Source: Geobacteraceae bacterium (lineage in GTDB: Bacteria > Desulfobacterota > Desulfuromonadia > Geobacterales > Geobacteraceae). From it: DNA of 40,927 bases. Of the stretch, positions 14,641-20,396 are shown in pieces. Where the stretch lies: NCBI GenBank assembly GCA_009773645.1, contig WSYB01000031.1, positions 1 through 40,927 on the forward strand, given 5' to 3'. The position numbers and the translations under genes were made by a program. How positions within the stretch are numbered: the first letter of the stretch is position 1; each line of letters begins with the position of its first letter. The notes beneath the pieces are model-generated. The model had not been told where the DNA came from. It was given only the letters and a program-made list of their open reading frames with translations, and made no database searches.

Positions 14641-15606
14641 GTGATTCTCGAAGAAGCGAAAAAAGTAATCAGGATCGAGGCCGAGGCTCTCATGAACCTG
14701 GCCGATGCCATAAACGGGGAGTTCGAGAGGGCGGTGGAGCTTATCCTTGCCTCAAAGGGAAGGGTGGTTGTTACCGGCATTGGGAAATCGGGACTGATCG
14801 GGCAGAAAATCGCCTCCACCATGGCATCCACCGGTACTCCCGCTTTTTTCCTCCATCCCGCCGAAGGGATACACGGTGACCTGGGGATGATCATGAAGGG
14901 GGACGTGGTGATTGCGGTTTCCAACAGCGGTGAGACAGAAGAGGTGGTACGCATCCTCCCTGTTATCAAACGCCTGGGCGCGAACCTCATCGCCATGGCC
15001 GGCAACTCTTCTTCCACCCTTGCCAGGGCAGGTGATGTTTTCCTCGATATCTCGGTGAAAGAAGAGGCATGTCCTCTCGGTCTCGCACCGACAGCCTCGA
15101 CTACTGCCACCCTGGCCATGGGGGACGCCCTCGCAGTGGCGCTGTTGCTCCAGCGCGGCTTTAGGGCCGAAGATTTCGCCCTCTTCCATCCGGGCGGCGC
15201 CCTCGGGAAGAAACTGATTCTGAGGGTTGAGGACCTGATGCACACGGGGGACGCCATTCCCCATGTGAATGGGGATATGCTCATGCGCGAGGCGCTTTTC
15301 GTCATCACCTCCAAGGGTTTGGGAATTACCGGGGTTACCGATGAGTCGGGGGGCCTCGTCGGGGTTATTACTGACGGGGACCTGCGCCGCGCTCTGGAGA
15401 AAGGGGTCGATATAATGACCCGCAGGGCTTGCGATCTGATGACGGGAAACCCCAAGCGGATCAGACGCTCGGAGCTGGCTGCCAAGGCCCTGCAGCGGAT
15501 GGAGGAGTACTCCATCACCTCGCTCTTTGTTTTTCAGGGGGAAAGCGATGCGAAACCGGTGGGGATTGTGCACCTGCACGATCTCCTGAAGGCGGGCATC
15601 GCCTGA
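14641..15606 (+). CDS. kdsD: Arabinose-5-phosphate isomerase
   Basis: Interconverts ribulose 5-phosphate and arabinose 5-phosphate, the first committed step to KDO. The 321-residue protein has the KpsF/GutQ architecture. An N-terminal SIS sugar-isomerase domain (about 35-175) has VTGIGKSGLIGQKIA, VIAVSNSGETEEV and FHPGGALGKKL. Two CBS domains follow (about 205-320). The start is a GTG at 14641, just after array H; upstream there is only GGGG as a possible ribosome site. The CBS pair is normal for the housekeeping KdsD. Confidence 0.96.
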   Translation: MILEEAKKVIRIEAEALMNLADAINGEFERAVELILASKGRVVVTGIGKSGLIGQKIASTMASTGTPAFFLHPAEGIHGDLGMIMKGDVVIAVSNSGETEEVVRILPVIKRLGANLIAMAGNSSSTLARAGDVFLDISVKEEACPLGLAPTASTTATLAMGDALAVALLLQRGFRAEDFALFHPGGALGKKLILRVEDLMHTGDAIPHVNGDMLMREALFVITSKGLGITGVTDESGGLVGVITDGDLRRALEKGVDIMTRRACDLMTGNPKRIRRSELAAKALQRMEEYSITSLFVFQGESDAKPVGIVHLHDLLKAGIA

Positions 15607-15626
15607 AAGCGGCTGCGCCACTTTCA

Positions 15627-15692
15627 AGGTTCGAGGTGCGAGGAACGAGAAATCATTTCCGGAACCTCGATCCTCGGTCCTCGTTCCTCGCG
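15627..15692. repeat. Heptanucleotide inverted-repeat array I
   Basis: It starts 20 nt after the kdsD stop. Left units AGGTTCG, AGGTGCG and variants (15627-15654); right units CCTCGAT, CCTCGGT and two more (15665-15692). Exactly four units per arm, 10-nt loop, no T tract. Confidence 0.88.
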
Positions 15693-15728
15693 GGCCAAGG
15701 TTCGCCGGTATCGCAGCACGGATAATTA

Positions 15729-16244
15729 ATGAACGAACGATTAGCCAAAATTAAATTACTCCTGCTCGATGTGGACGGGGTTTTGACTGACGGCCGCATC
15801 ATCTTCGATTCCAATCGGGTGGAGAGCAAATTTTTCAACGTCAAGGACGGCCACGGTATCAAGATGGTGCAGAGGGCGGGGGTCGAGGTGGGGATCATAT
15901 CCGGCCGGGAGTCCATAGTGGTCGCCAACCGGGCACAGGAACTGGGGATAAACCGCGTCTACCAGAAGGCGCTTGACAAGTTGGCCCCTTACCTGAAAAT
16001 CCTTGCGGAGACCGGCCTCGACGATTCCCAGGTTGCCTTCATGGGGGACGATATTATTGACATCCCGGTCATGCGCCGAGTTGGGTTCGCCGCAGCTCCG
16101 GCTGACGCCATGGAGTACGTGTTGCCCCATGTCCATTTTGTGACCAGGAATCGCGGCGGATGGGGGGCAGTGCGTGAGGTATGCGACCTCCTGCTGAAGG
16201 GACAGGGAGCCTGGGATGCGGTTACCGCCAGATATTTCCTCTAA
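15729..16244 (+). CDS. kdsC: KDO-8-phosphate phosphatase
   Basis: A 171-residue HAD-family hydrolase that dephosphorylates KDO 8-phosphate to KDO. The catalytic DVDGVLTD motif is near residue 14-21, with IISGRES as motif II, and FMGDDIIDIPVM as the Mg-binding motif near 102. The minimal cap fits the tetrameric KdsC group. No good Shine-Dalgarno precedes the ATG at 15729. A strong terminator 64 nt downstream closes the kds transcript, so the lpt genes further on need their own promoter. Confidence 0.96.
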   Translation: MNERLAKIKLLLLDVDGVLTDGRIIFDSNRVESKFFNVKDGHGIKMVQRAGVEVGIISGRESIVVANRAQELGINRVYQKALDKLAPYLKILAETGLDDSQVAFMGDDIIDIPVMRRVGFAAAPADAMEYVLPHVHFVTRNRGGWGAVREVCDLLLKGQGAWDAVTARYFL

Positions 16245-16341: not shown

Positions 16342-16416
16342 AATTGATTGCAGGGGCGTGATTTCCTGCTATTTTTGTCGTATGTTCCGACGTCGTGCGA
16401 TAATTGGGTTCATACA

Positions 16417-17604
16417 ATGAACGTTAAGTGGAAAGCAAGAGGCCCGGTCGGGGTCAGAAAGGCCGCCGTCAGAATTACAGCCATCTACGCCGTTATCGGA
16501 GGGTTGTGGATTCTCTTTTCTGACAAGCTATTGTCTCTGCTCGTAACGGACCCCACTCTCCTCAGTCGGATGCAGACCGCCAAGGGGTGGCTGTACGTCG
16601 GCGCCACGGCTTTGCTCCTCTACTGGCTTTTGCGTCGGTATCTGGCGGAGGCCGAAAGAGCCGCCAGGGCACGGGGTGAAAGCGAAGCCAGATTCCAGGC
16701 GATTTACCAGACCGCGCCGGTCTCGATATGGGAAGCGGACCTCTCTTTAGTCAAGGCGGACCTCGATACCCTGAAAGCGAAAGGGATCAAGGATTTCAGT
16801 CAATATTTCACTGACCAGCCGGGTTATGTCATGCAAGTCTTGCAGAATCTGCAGGTACTCGATGTAAACGAAACGACGCTCAAAATCTTTGCGGCAGGCA
16901 GTAAAACAGAACTCCTGAGCGCACTGGACCGTGTATTCATGCAGGAATCTCTAACGGTATTTCGCGACGGTCTTGTCGCCATCGCCGAAGGGAAGGGATA
17001 TTTCGAAGCGGAAGCGGTCATGATAACGCTGCAGGGAGATCGAAGGGATATTCTGGTCTCTCTGGCGATCCCGCCCGACAGCACGAAGTTCGGCAATCTT
17101 CCGGTGAGCGTCGTAGACATTACCGAACGCAAAAGGACGGAGGAGATGCTGCGGCTCCTGGAATCCGCCGTCCAGCAGACCAGGGAAGCGATTACCATCA
17201 CAACCGCGGAGCTCGATCCTCCCGGCCCTCAGATCGTCTATGTCAACCCGGCGTTCACCGCCATAACGGGTTATGAGGCCAGGGAGGTCATCGGCAAGAC
17301 CCCCCGGATACTGCAGGGGCCCAAAACCGACCGGAAGCTCCTGGACCGTATGCGCGAGACCTTGTGGCAAAGGCGGCCGTTCCAATGTGAAACCGTAAAC
17401 TACCGCAAGGACGGCTCGGAATTTATCATGGAATGGTATGTGGCTCCTCTGGTGAACAAACAGTTCCAGGTTACCCATTTTGTCGCAATGCAGAGGGATT
17501 TTACCGAACGGAAGCGGGCGGAAGAGGAAATTCGCAATCTTAACGTGGAGTTACAGCGCCGGATCACGGAGCTTGAAGCGGCCAGGGAAATCGGCGGCCG
17601 GTAG
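16417..17604 (+). CDS. Membrane-anchored PAS sensor protein lacking an output domain
   Basis: A 395-residue protein. Two transmembrane helices lie near 14-38 and 50-70, separated by a short loop. A PAS-like region (about 85-230) ends in VVDITERKR, and a second PAS/PAC domain (about 245-365) has YVNPAFTAITGYEAREVIGKTPRI and ends in MQRDFTERKRAEEE. A short helix (LNVELQRRITELEAA) follows and the frame then stops. In hybrid sensor kinases this linker leads into HisKA and HATPase domains; none is present. It may be a kinase truncated at its 3' end or a PAS-only adaptor. I start at the ATG at 16417, before the first membrane helix. A possible promoter (TTGTCG at 16375, GATAAT at 16399) would give a very short leader. 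It lies between the kds and lpt genes. Confidence 0.82.
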   Translation: MNVKWKARGPVGVRKAAVRITAIYAVIGGLWILFSDKLLSLLVTDPTLLSRMQTAKGWLYVGATALLLYWLLRRYLAEAERAARARGESEARFQAIYQTAPVSIWEADLSLVKADLDTLKAKGIKDFSQYFTDQPGYVMQVLQNLQVLDVNETTLKIFAAGSKTELLSALDRVFMQESLTVFRDGLVAIAEGKGYFEAEAVMITLQGDRRDILVSLAIPPDSTKFGNLPVSVVDITERKRTEEMLRLLESAVQQTREAITITTAELDPPGPQIVYVNPAFTAITGYEAREVIGKTPRILQGPKTDRKLLDRMRETLWQRRPFQCETVNYRKDGSEFIMEWYVAPLVNKQFQVTHFVAMQRDFTERKRAEEEIRNLNVELQRRITELEAAREIGGR

Positions 17605-17635: not shown

Positions 17636-18511
17636 TCAGTCCGGGGTCCGGCTTGCTTTAAGTCCTTCCCCCAGCGTGGGGTAGAGAAGTCCGATCCCGA
17701 GTTTCTCCCGCATTTTGCCGTTGTCCATCTGCCTGGATTCGGAGAAATAGGAGAGGATCAGGGGGTTCATGACCTCCCTGGCCTCTTTCATGGATACCTG
17801 CGGTGGCCTCATGAGTCCGAAGGCATCGGCAACGGCGTTGAAGTAGTGGGTCATGGTACCGCTCTCTCCGTCGCTGACATTGAAAATATCCCCCGCTTCT
17901 CCCTTGTCGGCGGCTGCAATACAGACCCTGGCCAGATCGTCCGCGTGGATGCGGTTGGTGAACGGGGCTTCATGCTCGTAAAGCACCGGATTTCCGCTTT
18001 CGATATGGGGGATGGGGAGGCGTCCGGGGCCGTAAATCCCCGCGACCCGGAGAATGACAACGGGAGCGTTTCTTTCGTTGCCCCATGAAAGAAGAAAAGC
18101 TTCCGCATCCAAGCGGCGCTTGGCCCTTGTGGTTTGCGGATGTGGCGGGGTCTCTTCGGTGACCGCACTCCCTCCGCAGTCGCCGTAAACCCCGCTGGTG
18201 CTCATGTACACCACCTTGTGCGGCTCATCTCCCGGGGCTACGGATGTGCAGAAAGACCGCATCCGCGGGTCAGTCAAACCTCCACCCGGCGGCGGGGCGA
18301 AGTAAAAGACCAGTGCCCCTTTTGTGGGAAGGTTTCTGAGGGAGGGGGGATAGTCCAGGTCTCCGGAGACCGTCTGGATCCCCAGTTTTTCCAACTCTTC
18401 AAAACTTTTGGCCGCCCTGGCCATCGCCACGACTGAGGCATTTTTCTCCATGGCCAACTTGGCAACCCGCTTGCCGACATAGCCGCAGCCGATGATAAGA
18501 ACTCTGTCCAA
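17636..18511 (-). CDS. NAD-dependent epimerase/dehydratase-like (extended SDR) protein
   Basis: A 291-residue Rossmann protein of the extended SDR superfamily, resembling YeeZ-type proteins. The nucleotide-binding motif is IIGCGYVGKR at 5-14 and MSTSGVYGD corresponds to the region of the catalytic Ser. The usual YxxxK is not evident where it would be expected (TRAKRRLDAEAFL lies there), so catalysis is uncertain. HADDLARVC and DIFNVSDGESG are typical of the C-terminal half. The start is a TTG at 18511, supported by AAGGAGAG about 9 nt upstream. It follows the NERD gene by 51 nt on the same strand and probably shares its transcript. The substrate is unknown. Confidence 0.85.
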   Translation of the reverse strand: MDRVLIIGCGYVGKRVAKLAMEKNASVVAMARAAKSFEELEKLGIQTVSGDLDYPPSLRNLPTKGALVFYFAPPPGGGLTDPRMRSFCTSVAPGDEPHKVVYMSTSGVYGDCGGSAVTEETPPHPQTTRAKRRLDAEAFLLSWGNERNAPVVILRVAGIYGPGRLPIPHIESGNPVLYEHEAPFTNRIHADDLARVCIAAADKGEAGDIFNVSDGESGTMTHYFNAVADAFGLMRPPQVSMKEAREVMNPLILSYFSESRQMDNGKMREKLGIGLLYPTLGEGLKASRTPD

Positions 18512-18562: not shown

Positions 18563-20182
18563 TTACATGGGGTTTCCCGATGCATTCCCTATGGTTCGTC
18601 CGCGGATCAGATTTTCGATCTGAAGGGGTGAAGGGCGCTTGCCGAATTTATGGCTTCTCCTTGCTTCCGCCTCAATATTTTCCAGCATCGCCACCAAACG
18701 GTCGATGGCTGTTATCCTGTAAAATTTCCCAATCTGGCTCCCTATCTTCGAAAGGTCGGACCCTTCCTGGAATACAATGACCCCGTATACCGAAATGTCC
18801 CACGGACTCCGCTTCTTCACGATGTGCATGAGACTCATGCAGTATTCGTTCACCTGGTGGAAGGGGTTGTCTCCCCAGAGGCTGTCAATCTGTTTTTTCC
18901 CCATCTCGTTGCGGCAAAACCATTTGTCGTTTTCAATGTCCCCATCGGAATCTATAGTCCCAAGGTAATTTTTTGCCTCGATGACAATCAGGCATTCTTT
19001 GCTTACGACAATGCAATCGGTGAACTGGCTGTAATTTTTACCGGCGGCAACATTAAAGCTGTTTATCAGGAGCCATTCTCCCTTCAGGTATTTAGGGCTT
19101 TTATAGATACATTCGAACATCTTCTGTTCAAAGGCGTTTGAAAATTTTGTTTTAACCGCGTATTCCAGCGCATTATAAGTTTCTTTTTTGTCCTTGTCTG
19201 AGGCTCCTTCAAATTCCGCAATCTTAGCCCGCAGAATCTCCATTTCCTGCTTGGATTTATTCAGTTCTTCATGCAATTTTGCTGATTGTTCCTGTTTTCC
19301 CTCTTCAATTTCCTTGATAACGTCTTCGGCAAACTTCTTATATTGATAATCGTCCTTTACTTTTTGTTCCAGTTCTTTAATTCTATTGAGGTATATTTCA
19401 AATTGTGCGGATGTGTACCTGTTCTGCTCTTCCAGTTGGTAGTTCTTTTCCTCCAGGAGCTTCAGGTAGTTGTCGGCGTTATTGATCAATTCATACTCAC
19501 GCTGCTTGGCGGTCCATAACTGCAAGCGTCTTATTCCGAGCGACAGTTCTAAAACCAGCCAGATCAAAAATCCGCCCAGCAGGCATACCTGCATGGTTTT
19601 CAGGTAATACTTCCAGGGTCCTGCATCTTTAAAGGGCTCCTTGATCCACTGGCTGTAATCCTCGCCGAAGCTGTGGGGCATGTTGCTGAGGATATACAGA
19701 CGGCCAATAATCTCGCCCTGGTTCGTCGCAGTATTTCGGCGTACGCCTGGTTTTTGCCGTTCAGTGGGTAGGGGGATGGCCCCTTGCAGCACTACGTATG
19801 GTTCCTTCACCAGATCGGCGGGAGTTGGGAACTTTCGCCAATTCAGATCAGGGTTGGAGGAATAGAGAATTTTCTGGTCGGGGCAATCCTGTTTTCCCGC
19901 CGGACAATCTGTGATGACGAATCCGAATACCCCAAAATTGCTGTCCAATACCTGTTGCAATGCCACTATATCGTTCATGATCAGATAGTATGACAGCCTT
20001 GTCCTTAACTGGTCGGACAGGAAATTGAGATCGGTGGTATGGATCTTAAACAGCGCTTTGTTGTAATGATTATCGTAATTCTCCCTGTTGAGAGGTTGTG
20101 CAATTACTATGGACAGCGCCATGATGATGGAAAACCTCAGGATAATATAGAAGAACTGCCTTATGGACATTACTTTTCCCAT
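18563..20182 (-). CDS. Two-TM receptor-like protein with coiled coil and NERD nuclease domain
   Basis: A 539-residue protein. TM1 is at about 6-28, a 165-residue extracytoplasmic domain follows, and TM2 is at about 194-216. A long charged coiled coil (about 222-325) leads to a C-terminal NERD domain (about 345-475). The extracytoplasmic part has the style of small sensory domains of membrane receptors. In the NERD domain the PD-(D/E)XK-like residues are visible: Asp389 (FTDCIVV), Glu402 and Lys404 (VIEAKNY), and the family-typical NPFHQ near 439-443. This is inferred to be a membrane receptor whose output is a nuclease-like domain; activity and target are unknown. The ATG at 20182 has AAGGA 10 nt upstream. 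The gene is visibly more A/T-rich than its neighbours, which may indicate acquisition. It lies on the opposite strand to the surrounding LPS genes. Confidence 0.85.
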   Translation of the reverse strand: MGKVMSIRQFFYIILRFSIIMALSIVIAQPLNRENYDNHYNKALFKIHTTDLNFLSDQLRTRLSYYLIMNDIVALQQVLDSNFGVFGFVITDCPAGKQDCPDQKILYSSNPDLNWRKFPTPADLVKEPYVVLQGAIPLPTERQKPGVRRNTATNQGEIIGRLYILSNMPHSFGEDYSQWIKEPFKDAGPWKYYLKTMQVCLLGGFLIWLVLELSLGIRRLQLWTAKQREYELINNADNYLKLLEEKNYQLEEQNRYTSAQFEIYLNRIKELEQKVKDDYQYKKFAEDVIKEIEEGKQEQSAKLHEELNKSKQEMEILRAKIAEFEGASDKDKKETYNALEYAVKTKFSNAFEQKMFECIYKSPKYLKGEWLLINSFNVAAGKNYSQFTDCIVVSKECLIVIEAKNYLGTIDSDGDIENDKWFCRNEMGKKQIDSLWGDNPFHQVNEYCMSLMHIVKKRSPWDISVYGVIVFQEGSDLSKIGSQIGKFYRITAIDRLVAMLENIEAEARRSHKFGKRPSPLQIENLIRGRTIGNASGNPM

Positions 20183-20310
20183 CAATGGTTAATCCTTGAT
20201 TTTTTTTATTACTCTGCATCTTTTCCCAATGATTTTGCAAGAGCTAATTCCGCCGGAAATGGTAAAATAATTATGAACAACGGCTTCGATGGGTTAAGAT
20301 TAATCCCCCG

Positions 20311-20329
20311 TCTTCAATCTTTGTGCCAA
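20311..20329 (-). promoter_or_regulatory. Possible sigma-54-like promoter for the NERD gene
   Basis: On the minus strand, TTGGCACAAAGATTGAA matches the sigma-54 -24 box TGGCAC perfectly. The -12 element is TTGA where TTGC is expected, with correct GG-to-GN spacing of 10 nt. The leader would be about 115 nt. The -12 mismatch makes this tentative. Confidence 0.3.
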
Positions 20330-20355
20330 ATTTCCCCTTCCCCGCCACAATCCGC

Positions 20356-20384
20356 TTTACAGCCATTTTTTATGGTGTTATACT
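20356..20384 (+). promoter_or_regulatory. Sigma-70 promoter for lptC
   Basis: TTTACA (20356-20361), an ideal 17-nt spacer, and TATACT (20379-20384). The predicted transcription start, around 20391, is only about 6 nt before the lptC ATG at 20397, leaving no room for a ribosome-binding site. Confidence 0.65.
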
Positions 20385-20396
20385 CTCTTCGAAATT

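Follow-up and report, generated by a model that had tools for sequence, protein, structure and literature searches.

A receptor-like membrane protein with a NERD nuclease-fold domain in a Geobacteraceae bacterium, and relatives with exchanged outputs on cyanobacterial plasmids

Background

Can a signal that is received outside the cell govern a nuclease on the inner side of the membrane? This question is raised by a gene of a Geobacteraceae bacterium (GenBank assembly GCA_009773645.1), located on the minus strand at positions 18563-20182 of contig WSYB01000031.1, whose whole analysed stretch of 40,927 nucleotides is here called the window. An original prediction, made from the sequence alone, had described the product as a transmembrane (TM) receptor with a NERD nuclease in the place of the usual output. 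We suggest, with a probability of roughly one half, that the protein is an inner-membrane one-component receptor in which a tethered nuclease is set free or brought into place by an envelope signal. TM receptors that answer an outside signal with a nuclease or a toxin would be new in kind, and none of the titles or abstract openings listed in searches of an open-access library describes a receptor of this type with NERD or a toxin as its output. The protein would combine two known kinds, the modular TM receptor and the membrane-tethered nuclease, and there is a chance that it is part of a broader class of nucleic-acid-attacking receptors.

Architecture of the window protein

The open reading frame listing gives a minus-strand frame at 18563-20185 with 540 amino acids from a TTG start, while alternative ATG starts at 20182 and 20170 yield 539 and 535 amino acids, respectively. 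The coding sequence is drawn here from the ATG at 20182, as in the original prediction, and residues are counted from the ATG at 20170, so that the earlier residue numbers are higher by four. Homologues are 61% identical in the nearest genus and 41-45% identical in others, and the protein is therefore not a chance frame; a homologous fragment at a contig end has 39% identity.

The predicted receptor layout was borne out by hydropathy, an AlphaFold2 model and Pfam. Hydropathy maxima lie at residues 6-24 and 195-213 with about 162 residues in between, and the model of the full protein (18 sequences; mean predicted local distance difference test score, pLDDT, 82.7; predicted template modelling score 0.45) consists of a helix at residues 3-45, two shorter helices, four strands within 82-162 and a helix at 168-177, followed from the second TM segment onward by two long helices (186-270 and 275-322) and, at the C-terminus, by a domain of mixed alpha/beta type. 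We accordingly place TM1 at about residues 6-27 (20090-20155, minus strand like the whole gene), where the first model helix runs, and a periplasmic sensor-like domain at about residues 29-190 (19601-20086). TM2, at about residues 192-213 (19532-19597), is contained in the unbroken model helix 186-270, and a coiled-coil linker at residues 214-344 (19139-19531), delimited from model and alignment, leads to the NERD nuclease-fold domain at residues 345-501 (18668-19138). The linker has 131 residues in the window protein and in one homologue (L040), 132 in another (L039) and 214-481 in the four cyanobacterial NERD relatives described below. Matches from the structure comparison program VIA-align to residues 212-330 were long helices of unrelated proteins and were discarded.

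The outside domain occurs on different outputs

A tblastn search of plasmid records found relatives in eight cyanobacterial records, and the same eight were obtained with a Nostoc or a Synechococcus sensor as query. They correspond to six different proteins, three Synechococcus records having one sensor sequence in common. All come from plasmid records, and cyanobacterial chromosomes were covered by short-peptide scans only. These relatives overturned our earlier notion that the family is restricted to Geobacterales. Four of the six proteins end in a NERD domain that exceeds the Pfam cut-off, namely those of Nostoc MS1 (683 amino acids), Cylindrospermopsis (586), Calothrix (646) and Nostoc C052 (888; the four loci are L148, L149, L151 and L153).

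The other two carry different outputs. In Aulosira laxa (L152) the sensor matches residues 1-259 of the window protein (E = 1e-28) and leads into a kinase domain of the HATPase_c family (E = 2.5e-9; 38.0 bits, cut-off 26.4). Only 2 bases downstream begins a gene for a protein with a receiver domain (E = 5.4e-18). In Synechococcus elongatus (L150; sensor match E = 4e-20) the C-terminal domain is RelE/ParE-like: it scores 27.0 bits against a cut-off of 23 for ParE_toxin when scanned alone and 21.5 in the whole protein, and it matches Rv2866 of the PDB (E = 0.0018). The receiver protein of Aulosira (L152:7500-8435) likewise has a C-terminal stretch of 110 residues with a ParE_toxin score of 23.3 bits against 23 scanned alone and 21.6 in the whole protein; if this match holds, it would form with the sensor kinase beside it a two-component system with a toxin output. 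A comparison by hhalign of two overlapping alignments (A3 and A7) was set aside, because they have members in common and are not independent.

The outside domain thus appears on different outputs, as would be expected of a receptor input domain. Since the module is common to a kinase encoded beside a receiver gene and to a nuclease, it is most readily seen as an input domain, and its fusion to a histidine kinase in Aulosira, judged from sequence comparison, speaks more strongly than any other finding for a receptor role of the window protein, independently of the features on which the receptor reading had first been based. Across nine aligned proteins, which between them have three output kinds, the sensor residues D47, Q72, T87, L120, L128, I155-G156-R157 and Y159 are identical. 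Among Geobacterales, 15 of the 162 positions of the outside domain are invariant in 22 aligned sequences, which comprise the window protein and 21 homologues (the contig-end fragment, L044, was left out, and residues 28 and 44 were counted in 21 sequences because the N-terminus of L023 is cut short). Cys89 and Cys96 (within 19883-19906) are present in 22/22 of these sequences and in three of the six cyanobacterial proteins, the other three having a shorter turn. From the alignments, the two cysteines could form a structural or redox-sensitive disulfide, and a redox cue for the receptor would be a guess suggested by the cytochrome genes near many family members.

The NERD domain retains a complete putative active site

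Pfam places NERD (PF08378) at residues 360-467 (18770-19093; E = 1.1e-12, 48.9 bits against a cut-off of 22.1). It is the sole family above its cut-off in the window protein, and it was detected in 18 of 18 alignment members (E up to 1). Six residues spread over 18842-19129 are identical in all 22 aligned Geobacterales proteins and are all kept in the four cyanobacterial NERD relatives: E348 (19127-19129), D385 (19016-19018), E398 (18977-18979), K400 (18971-18973), Q439 (18854-18856) and Y443 (18842-18844). We take E348, D385, E398 and K400 to be a PD-(D/E)XK active site, and the Q-x3-Y motif to be that of RecB-like nucleases. Invariant positions number 29 of 191 in the NERD region, and the chance that all six would fall among them is 7.6e-6 if alignment columns are treated as exchangeable, which they are not. 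Asp389, Glu402 and Lys404 of the original prediction are D385, E398 and K400 in our numbering, and were found in place as stated. The NPFHQ motif (residues 435-439) was upheld in part: N, P and Q occur in 22/22 sequences, but H is found in 21/22 and is replaced by T, Q or E in the four cyanobacterial relatives.

The proposed kinship of NERD with the PD-(D/E)XK fold agrees with the structure comparison. When the Foldseek list for the model of residues 343-506 was rescored, the best solved chain was Can2 (7bdv; Z = 10.1 over 122 residues, 3.1 A), followed by an McrBC chain (6hz4_M; 9.6), VC1899 (1xmx; 9.3), a second Can2 entry (8q44; 9.2), Cdn1 (9.0) and an archaeal repair endonuclease (2vld; 8.1). 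McrC, VC1899 and Cdn1 are nucleases of the PD-(D/E)XK fold. Foldseek itself ranked XPB-Bax1 complexes and Can2 at the top (best E = 0.0036). From the alignment and the model, the output looks catalytic, with a complete active site of the PD-(D/E)XK type. VIA-align also matched the NERD part to Upx (9wuf; Z = 9.9), and weak matches of the proteins to HpsJ, SMC and LMBR1 were put down to coiled-coil or membrane-helix resemblance.

Distribution of the family

The receptor-NERD protein is present in 22 of 97 related genomes (its own genome and the contig-end fragment included) and in 9 of 28 genera. The domain combination is hence found well beyond this one gene, and both the outside domain and the presumed active residues are conserved among its homologues. 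Two scans of genome contigs were seeded with six and two short peptides; the first gave no matches, and the second located 17 homologous loci in GTDB genomes of Geobacterales, among them Geomonas, Geotalea, Geomobilimonas and Geobacter, together with four Halobacillus loci that match in the NERD part alone. A broader sensor profile recovered 23 of 141 genomes of the order, in 10 of 29 genera, and added a 526-amino-acid protein (genome G501, locus L169) that has the same layout by eye. In a sample of the phylum, the Geobacterales sensor profile matched 3/395 genomes, all in the window's family, and the NERD-region profile matched those three and two more genomes, in which the frames are short (243 and 260 amino acids); the broader sensor profile matched 4/326, one of them weakly and outside the order. 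No viral relative was found in phages or, with limited short-peptide patterns, in viral contigs.

The rows of the gene tree group by genus, as is expected under vertical descent. Simple vertical descent is, however, opposed by the position of the window protein and its nearest relative, which under a midpoint root join rows of another family. As had been noticed originally, the gene is A/T-rich compared with its neighbours (guanine plus cytosine content, GC, 0.457 against 0.551 in the flanks). This is no family trait, since the difference between gene and flanks ranges from -0.088 to +0.037 in 21 relatives, and it speaks only weakly for a recent transfer: a GC more than 0.06 below that of the flanks is seen in just three of 22 copies (window, L030 and L031).

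Proposed mechanism and rival explanations

If the protein acts as we suggest, a Cache-like periplasmic domain held between two TM helices would read an envelope or extracellular signal, and a change in this domain would move TM2 and alter the packing of the long, probably dimeric coiled coil. The path from sensor through TM2 to coiled coil is the usual one in two-TM receptors. The NERD domains would then be released or paired and could cut nucleic acid close to the membrane, and tethering would hold the nuclease off the chromosome while it is in the off state. DNA appears a more likely substrate than RNA. The purpose would most likely be to guard the membrane against incoming DNA, and in second place to process DNA under envelope or redox stress; an anti-phage or other defence role is plausible. 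More tentatively, and in our view rather unlikely as a whole, the proteins may constitute a receptor family of two phyla in which the output behind one sensor is interchangeably a NERD nuclease, a toxin of RelE/ParE type or a kinase whose receiver partner carries a toxin, with DNA being attacked on both faces of the membrane in the case of the cyanobacterial plasmids. Envelope signals would in that event be answered by direct attack on nucleic acid or translation and not by transcription, and the plasmids would combine an exported fusion of binding protein and nuclease, as well as a 5'-nucleotidase, with the receptor. The exchange of outputs on one sensor makes the question of gating testable and gives a testable role to the NERD domain. 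Receptor gating would be one way to keep a membrane-bound nuclease silent until it is needed, an issue also raised by the autoinhibited state proposed for SNIPE, a membrane-located nuclease of E. coli (PMC13190303).

Several observations weigh against a gated receptor. The structural search of the outside domain gave a divided answer. On the one hand, extracytoplasmic sensor domains fill 13 of the first 14 rows of VIA-align (Z = 5.6-7.4; four WalK/YycG and three KinD entries, hence not 13 independent cases, as well as CusS, a LapD-like protein, TlpC, Tlp1, TlpQ and a histidine kinase), the 14th being a B. subtilis domain of unknown function and the remaining of the 50 rows ribosomal with Z of at most 5.1. 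On the other hand, Foldseek found nothing convincing (best E = 0.83 in the PDB and 0.051 among viral proteins), and the domain modelled alone has a weak mean pLDDT of 66.6. Because VIA-align Z values of 7-8 are common for models without true relatives, the likeness to sensors is suggestive only, and the domain may have a PAS-like Cache fold. Pfam detected no Cache, PAS or CHASE family in the 18 outside domains scanned alone, up to E = 5, and the sensor-kinase input family 2CSK_N appeared in two of 18 full proteins with a best E of 0.053, too weak to count. A match of the sensor profile to nicotinate phosphoribosyltransferase (3os4; E = 0.0007) spans 64 mostly helical positions and was attributed to chance. 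Within the window's family the sensor is found on NERD proteins only (15/15 matching genomes), and the exchange of outputs comes down to two cyanobacterial proteins. The RelE/ParE matches are thin, falling below the cut-off of 23 in whole proteins, and in BLASTP neither of the two RelE/ParE-like domains finds the other. No conserved neighbour of the window gene points to a signal or substrate. Finally, the one studied bacterial membrane NERD protein that we found, SmdA of Staphylococcus aureus, is described as having a role in cell shape and as missing several conserved NERD residues (PMC9040797).

A first rival is a membrane-tethered nuclease without gating, in the manner of SNIPE or RmuC. 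The outside domain would then do no more than locate the protein, next to a channel, at an injection site or at the replication or division machinery, and tethering alone would control the nuclease. We consider this improbable, yet more likely than the alternatives that follow. SNIPE, with a TM segment, DUF4041 and a GIY-YIG domain, acts through its placement in the membrane of E. coli, but its N-terminal region is reported to be very poorly conserved (PMC13190303), whereas the outside domain here keeps its invariant positions and is common to a histidine kinase. Of the other NERD proteins, 23 were recovered from the 28 best-scoring loci of the phylum sample, and 10 of these have one or two TM segments (L124, L125, L134, L138 and L143 were left out as they were not recovered at the expected length). 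However, none of these ten has an outside loop of at least 100 residues. RmuC, a membrane-anchored coiled-coil protein with a nuclease fold, is encoded in 90 of the 97 relatives. It occurs with and without the receptor gene, so that a role of the receptor as RmuC replacement was rejected; the window protein has no match to the RmuC domain (PF02646) in Pfam, and RmuC is a separate gene in its genome.

Two further explanations were considered. In one, which we regard as less probable than ungated tethering, the receptor would answer extracellular nucleotides, phosphate or DNA, with NERD taking part in a response of DNA use or DNA exclusion. In favour of it, the receptor gene is followed at three of the four cyanobacterial NERD-receptor loci by a gene (L153:8643-10352, L151:7838-9634 and L149:8019-9875) whose product joins a PhnD-like domain, of the phosphate/phosphonate-binding type, to a staphylococcal-type nuclease (SNase), two of the PhnD-like/SNase proteins having lipoprotein-like N-termini by eye. 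In Nostoc commune SO-36 an 815-amino-acid protein even unites NERD, PhnD-like and SNase parts (L154:5137-7584). A gene annotated as acid phosphatase (in two of the receptor loci, L151 and L153) or as e(P4) 5'-nucleotidase (in L154) comes next; the one acid phosphatase that was scanned reaches 202.6 bits with the e(P4) model, just under the cut-off of 216. Nostoc MS1 and Synechococcus, too, have thermonuclease genes, annotated as genes of their own, close to the receptor. This adjacency is weak evidence, however, since SNase genes are frequent on the plasmids of cyanobacteria, where 41 records gave a match, mostly through the SNase part. Moreover, no PhnD-like/SNase gene lies near the window copy, the single match in its genome is a 137-amino-acid frame with the SNase part only on another contig, and the Geobacterales neighbours are cytochromes or housekeeping genes. 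The other explanation, to which we give the least weight, is that NERD serves as a DNA-binding or scaffolding domain and not as a nuclease, the protein linking the state of the envelope to shape, division or the nucleoid. SmdA, a membrane NERD protein required for normal division, would be the precedent, and the position of the window gene between lptC and an epimerase gene would fit; yet several highly conserved NERD residues are reported to be absent from SmdA (PMC9040797), all six presumed catalytic residues are kept here, and the lptC setting was not seen in the 22 other loci compared. We retain the gated, tethered nuclease as the preferred reading.

Comparison with known systems

SNIPE (PD-lambda-1) resembles the window protein in being a single elongated inner-membrane protein with its nuclease on the cytoplasmic side; it cuts phage DNA during injection and so protects E. 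coli, and its untethered form is toxic (PMC13190303). It differs by its GIY-YIG and DUF4041 domains, a single TM segment, the poorly conserved N-terminal region and a proven defence function (PMC13190303). The window protein cannot be counted as a SNIPE, since both DUF4041 and GIY-YIG are missing from it and its outside domain is conserved. Zorya, Kiwa and SNIPE are treated together in a review as systems located at the membrane (PMC12904381), and in layout the window protein is like them. SmdA shares a membrane anchor, a long helix and a C-terminal NERD-like domain with our protein, but it has 302 amino acids, one TM segment and a short extracellular part, is found in Staphylococcaceae and acts in cell division and shape (PMC9040797). 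With two TM segments and a large outside domain, the window protein falls outside the SmdA type. According to the authors of the SmdA study, the actual function of NERD had to their knowledge not been studied experimentally (PMC9040797).

By structure comparison, Can2 ranks first for the NERD domain, and extracytoplasmic sensors give the best matches, of moderate Z, for the outside domain. Can2/Card1 is a soluble PD-(D/E)XK nuclease of type III CRISPR systems that is switched by a CARF domain sensing cytoplasmic cyclic tetra-adenylate. The likeness to Cache receptors such as WalK, CusS, KinD and chemoreceptors lies in an outside domain between two TM helices and in the order of helix and then sheet. 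They differ in that a Pfam Cache match is missing from the outside domain of the window family, which is thus not classed in the Cache superfamily. The outputs tabulated for Cache proteins are kinases, methyl-accepting chemotaxis proteins, cyclic di-GMP enzymes, cyclases, phosphatases, Ser/Thr kinases, ion channels and transcription factors, and words beginning with 'nuclease' are absent from the main text of that paper (PMC4822843). NERD is also part of defence systems such as Mokosh type I (PMC10952713). Models of defence proteins match the family in the NERD region: MAD6 in 16/18 members and PglW in 4/18, and in a second scan the candidate PDC-M16A in 11/18, Mokosh MkoA in 10/18 and PglW in 5/18. 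In the window protein, the matches are confined to residues 344-499 for MAD6 (23.4 bits against a cut-off of 460) and 359-479 for MkoA.

Gene neighbourhoods and further observations

Geobacterales settings were compared in 23 loci (22 fetched and the window), in which gene names were assigned by eye from two loci and extended by clustering. No defence genes were recognised near the receptor gene in these loci, in which neighbours were read by eye with no family search and many were not named. The recognisable neighbours are multihaem cytochromes or housekeeping genes, and a defence island in Geobacterales was accordingly rejected. The defence device once proposed therefore gains no support from this order and is suggested only by some cyanobacterial plasmid neighbourhoods. 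Restriction- or defence-like genes occur in three of the six plasmid settings: an N6 methylase, HEPN proteins and the PADLOC candidate family PDC-S58 in Synechococcus, GmrSD and HNH genes in Aulosira, and HsdR_N in Nostoc MS1. The other three have the PhnD-like/SNase gene.

A large multihaem cytochrome gene lies immediately upstream of the receptor gene on the same strand in nine of the 22 fetched loci by eye (L027, L030, L036-L038 and L040-L043), and L169 has a cytochrome fragment there. In the Geomonas-type genus, a close copy of the cytochrome (85-100% identity) is found in four of 19 genomes, exactly the four with the NERD gene. As these NERD genes group in a single clade, one event rather than four may lie behind the co-occurrence. 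A Sua5-like gene is found upstream in seven loci of one family (among them the contig-end fragment, with the second copy in genome G068 left out), and gltX comes next in the five whose contigs continue. Between the Sua5-like and NERD genes, five loci encode a small three-helix membrane protein whose gene overlaps the start of the NERD gene in four. This protein of 118-125 amino acids, directly upstream of the receptor gene in L025, L031, L032, L039 and L044, is a possible partner of the NERD receptor.

A few additional proteins were seen beside the family. Genome G068 has a second receptor copy (L043, contig C129), whose cytochrome setting and sequence are those of a different family. In the gene tree this copy falls among the remaining genera of the window's family, which also speaks against simple descent; it may reflect a binning error or transfer. 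The other NERD match in the window's own genome (L002 / L045, contig C63) is a 127-amino-acid frame that is by eye YraN/UPF0102-like and not NERD proper. L141 (G049, same order) encodes a shorter NERD protein of the two-TM kind, a frame of 322 amino acids in which about 65 residues separate the TM segments. In genome G407, a protein of 475 amino acids (L168:349-1776, minus strand) shows by eye a TM segment, an outside domain of about 140 residues (...FGPYALVLTDRAGEV...), a second TM segment and a coiled coil. It matches the sensor profile weakly (E = 9.7e-5), and its C-terminal domain is perhaps a further output type; WD-repeat matches of this C-terminus were discarded, as no stretch passes alone.

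In the window itself, lptC and lptA diverge from the receptor gene beyond an intergenic region at 20186-20396, and the lptC-side setting is absent from the 22 other loci compared. That the receptor gene opposes the lipopolysaccharide genes around it, as first described, applies to lptC, to lptA and to the SIS/CBS and HAD-hydrolase genes on the plus strand (14641-16244), but not to the NAD-dependent epimerase gene (17636-18511, minus), which lies 51 bases downstream on the same strand. The 418-amino-acid frame at 16348-17604 encodes a membrane protein in which a PAS domain is followed by a helix; Pfam detects no kinase or other output in it, and it may be a truncation. Co-transcription of the receptor and epimerase genes is possible, and the epimerase gene was also read by eye as the next gene in the nearest relative (L023).

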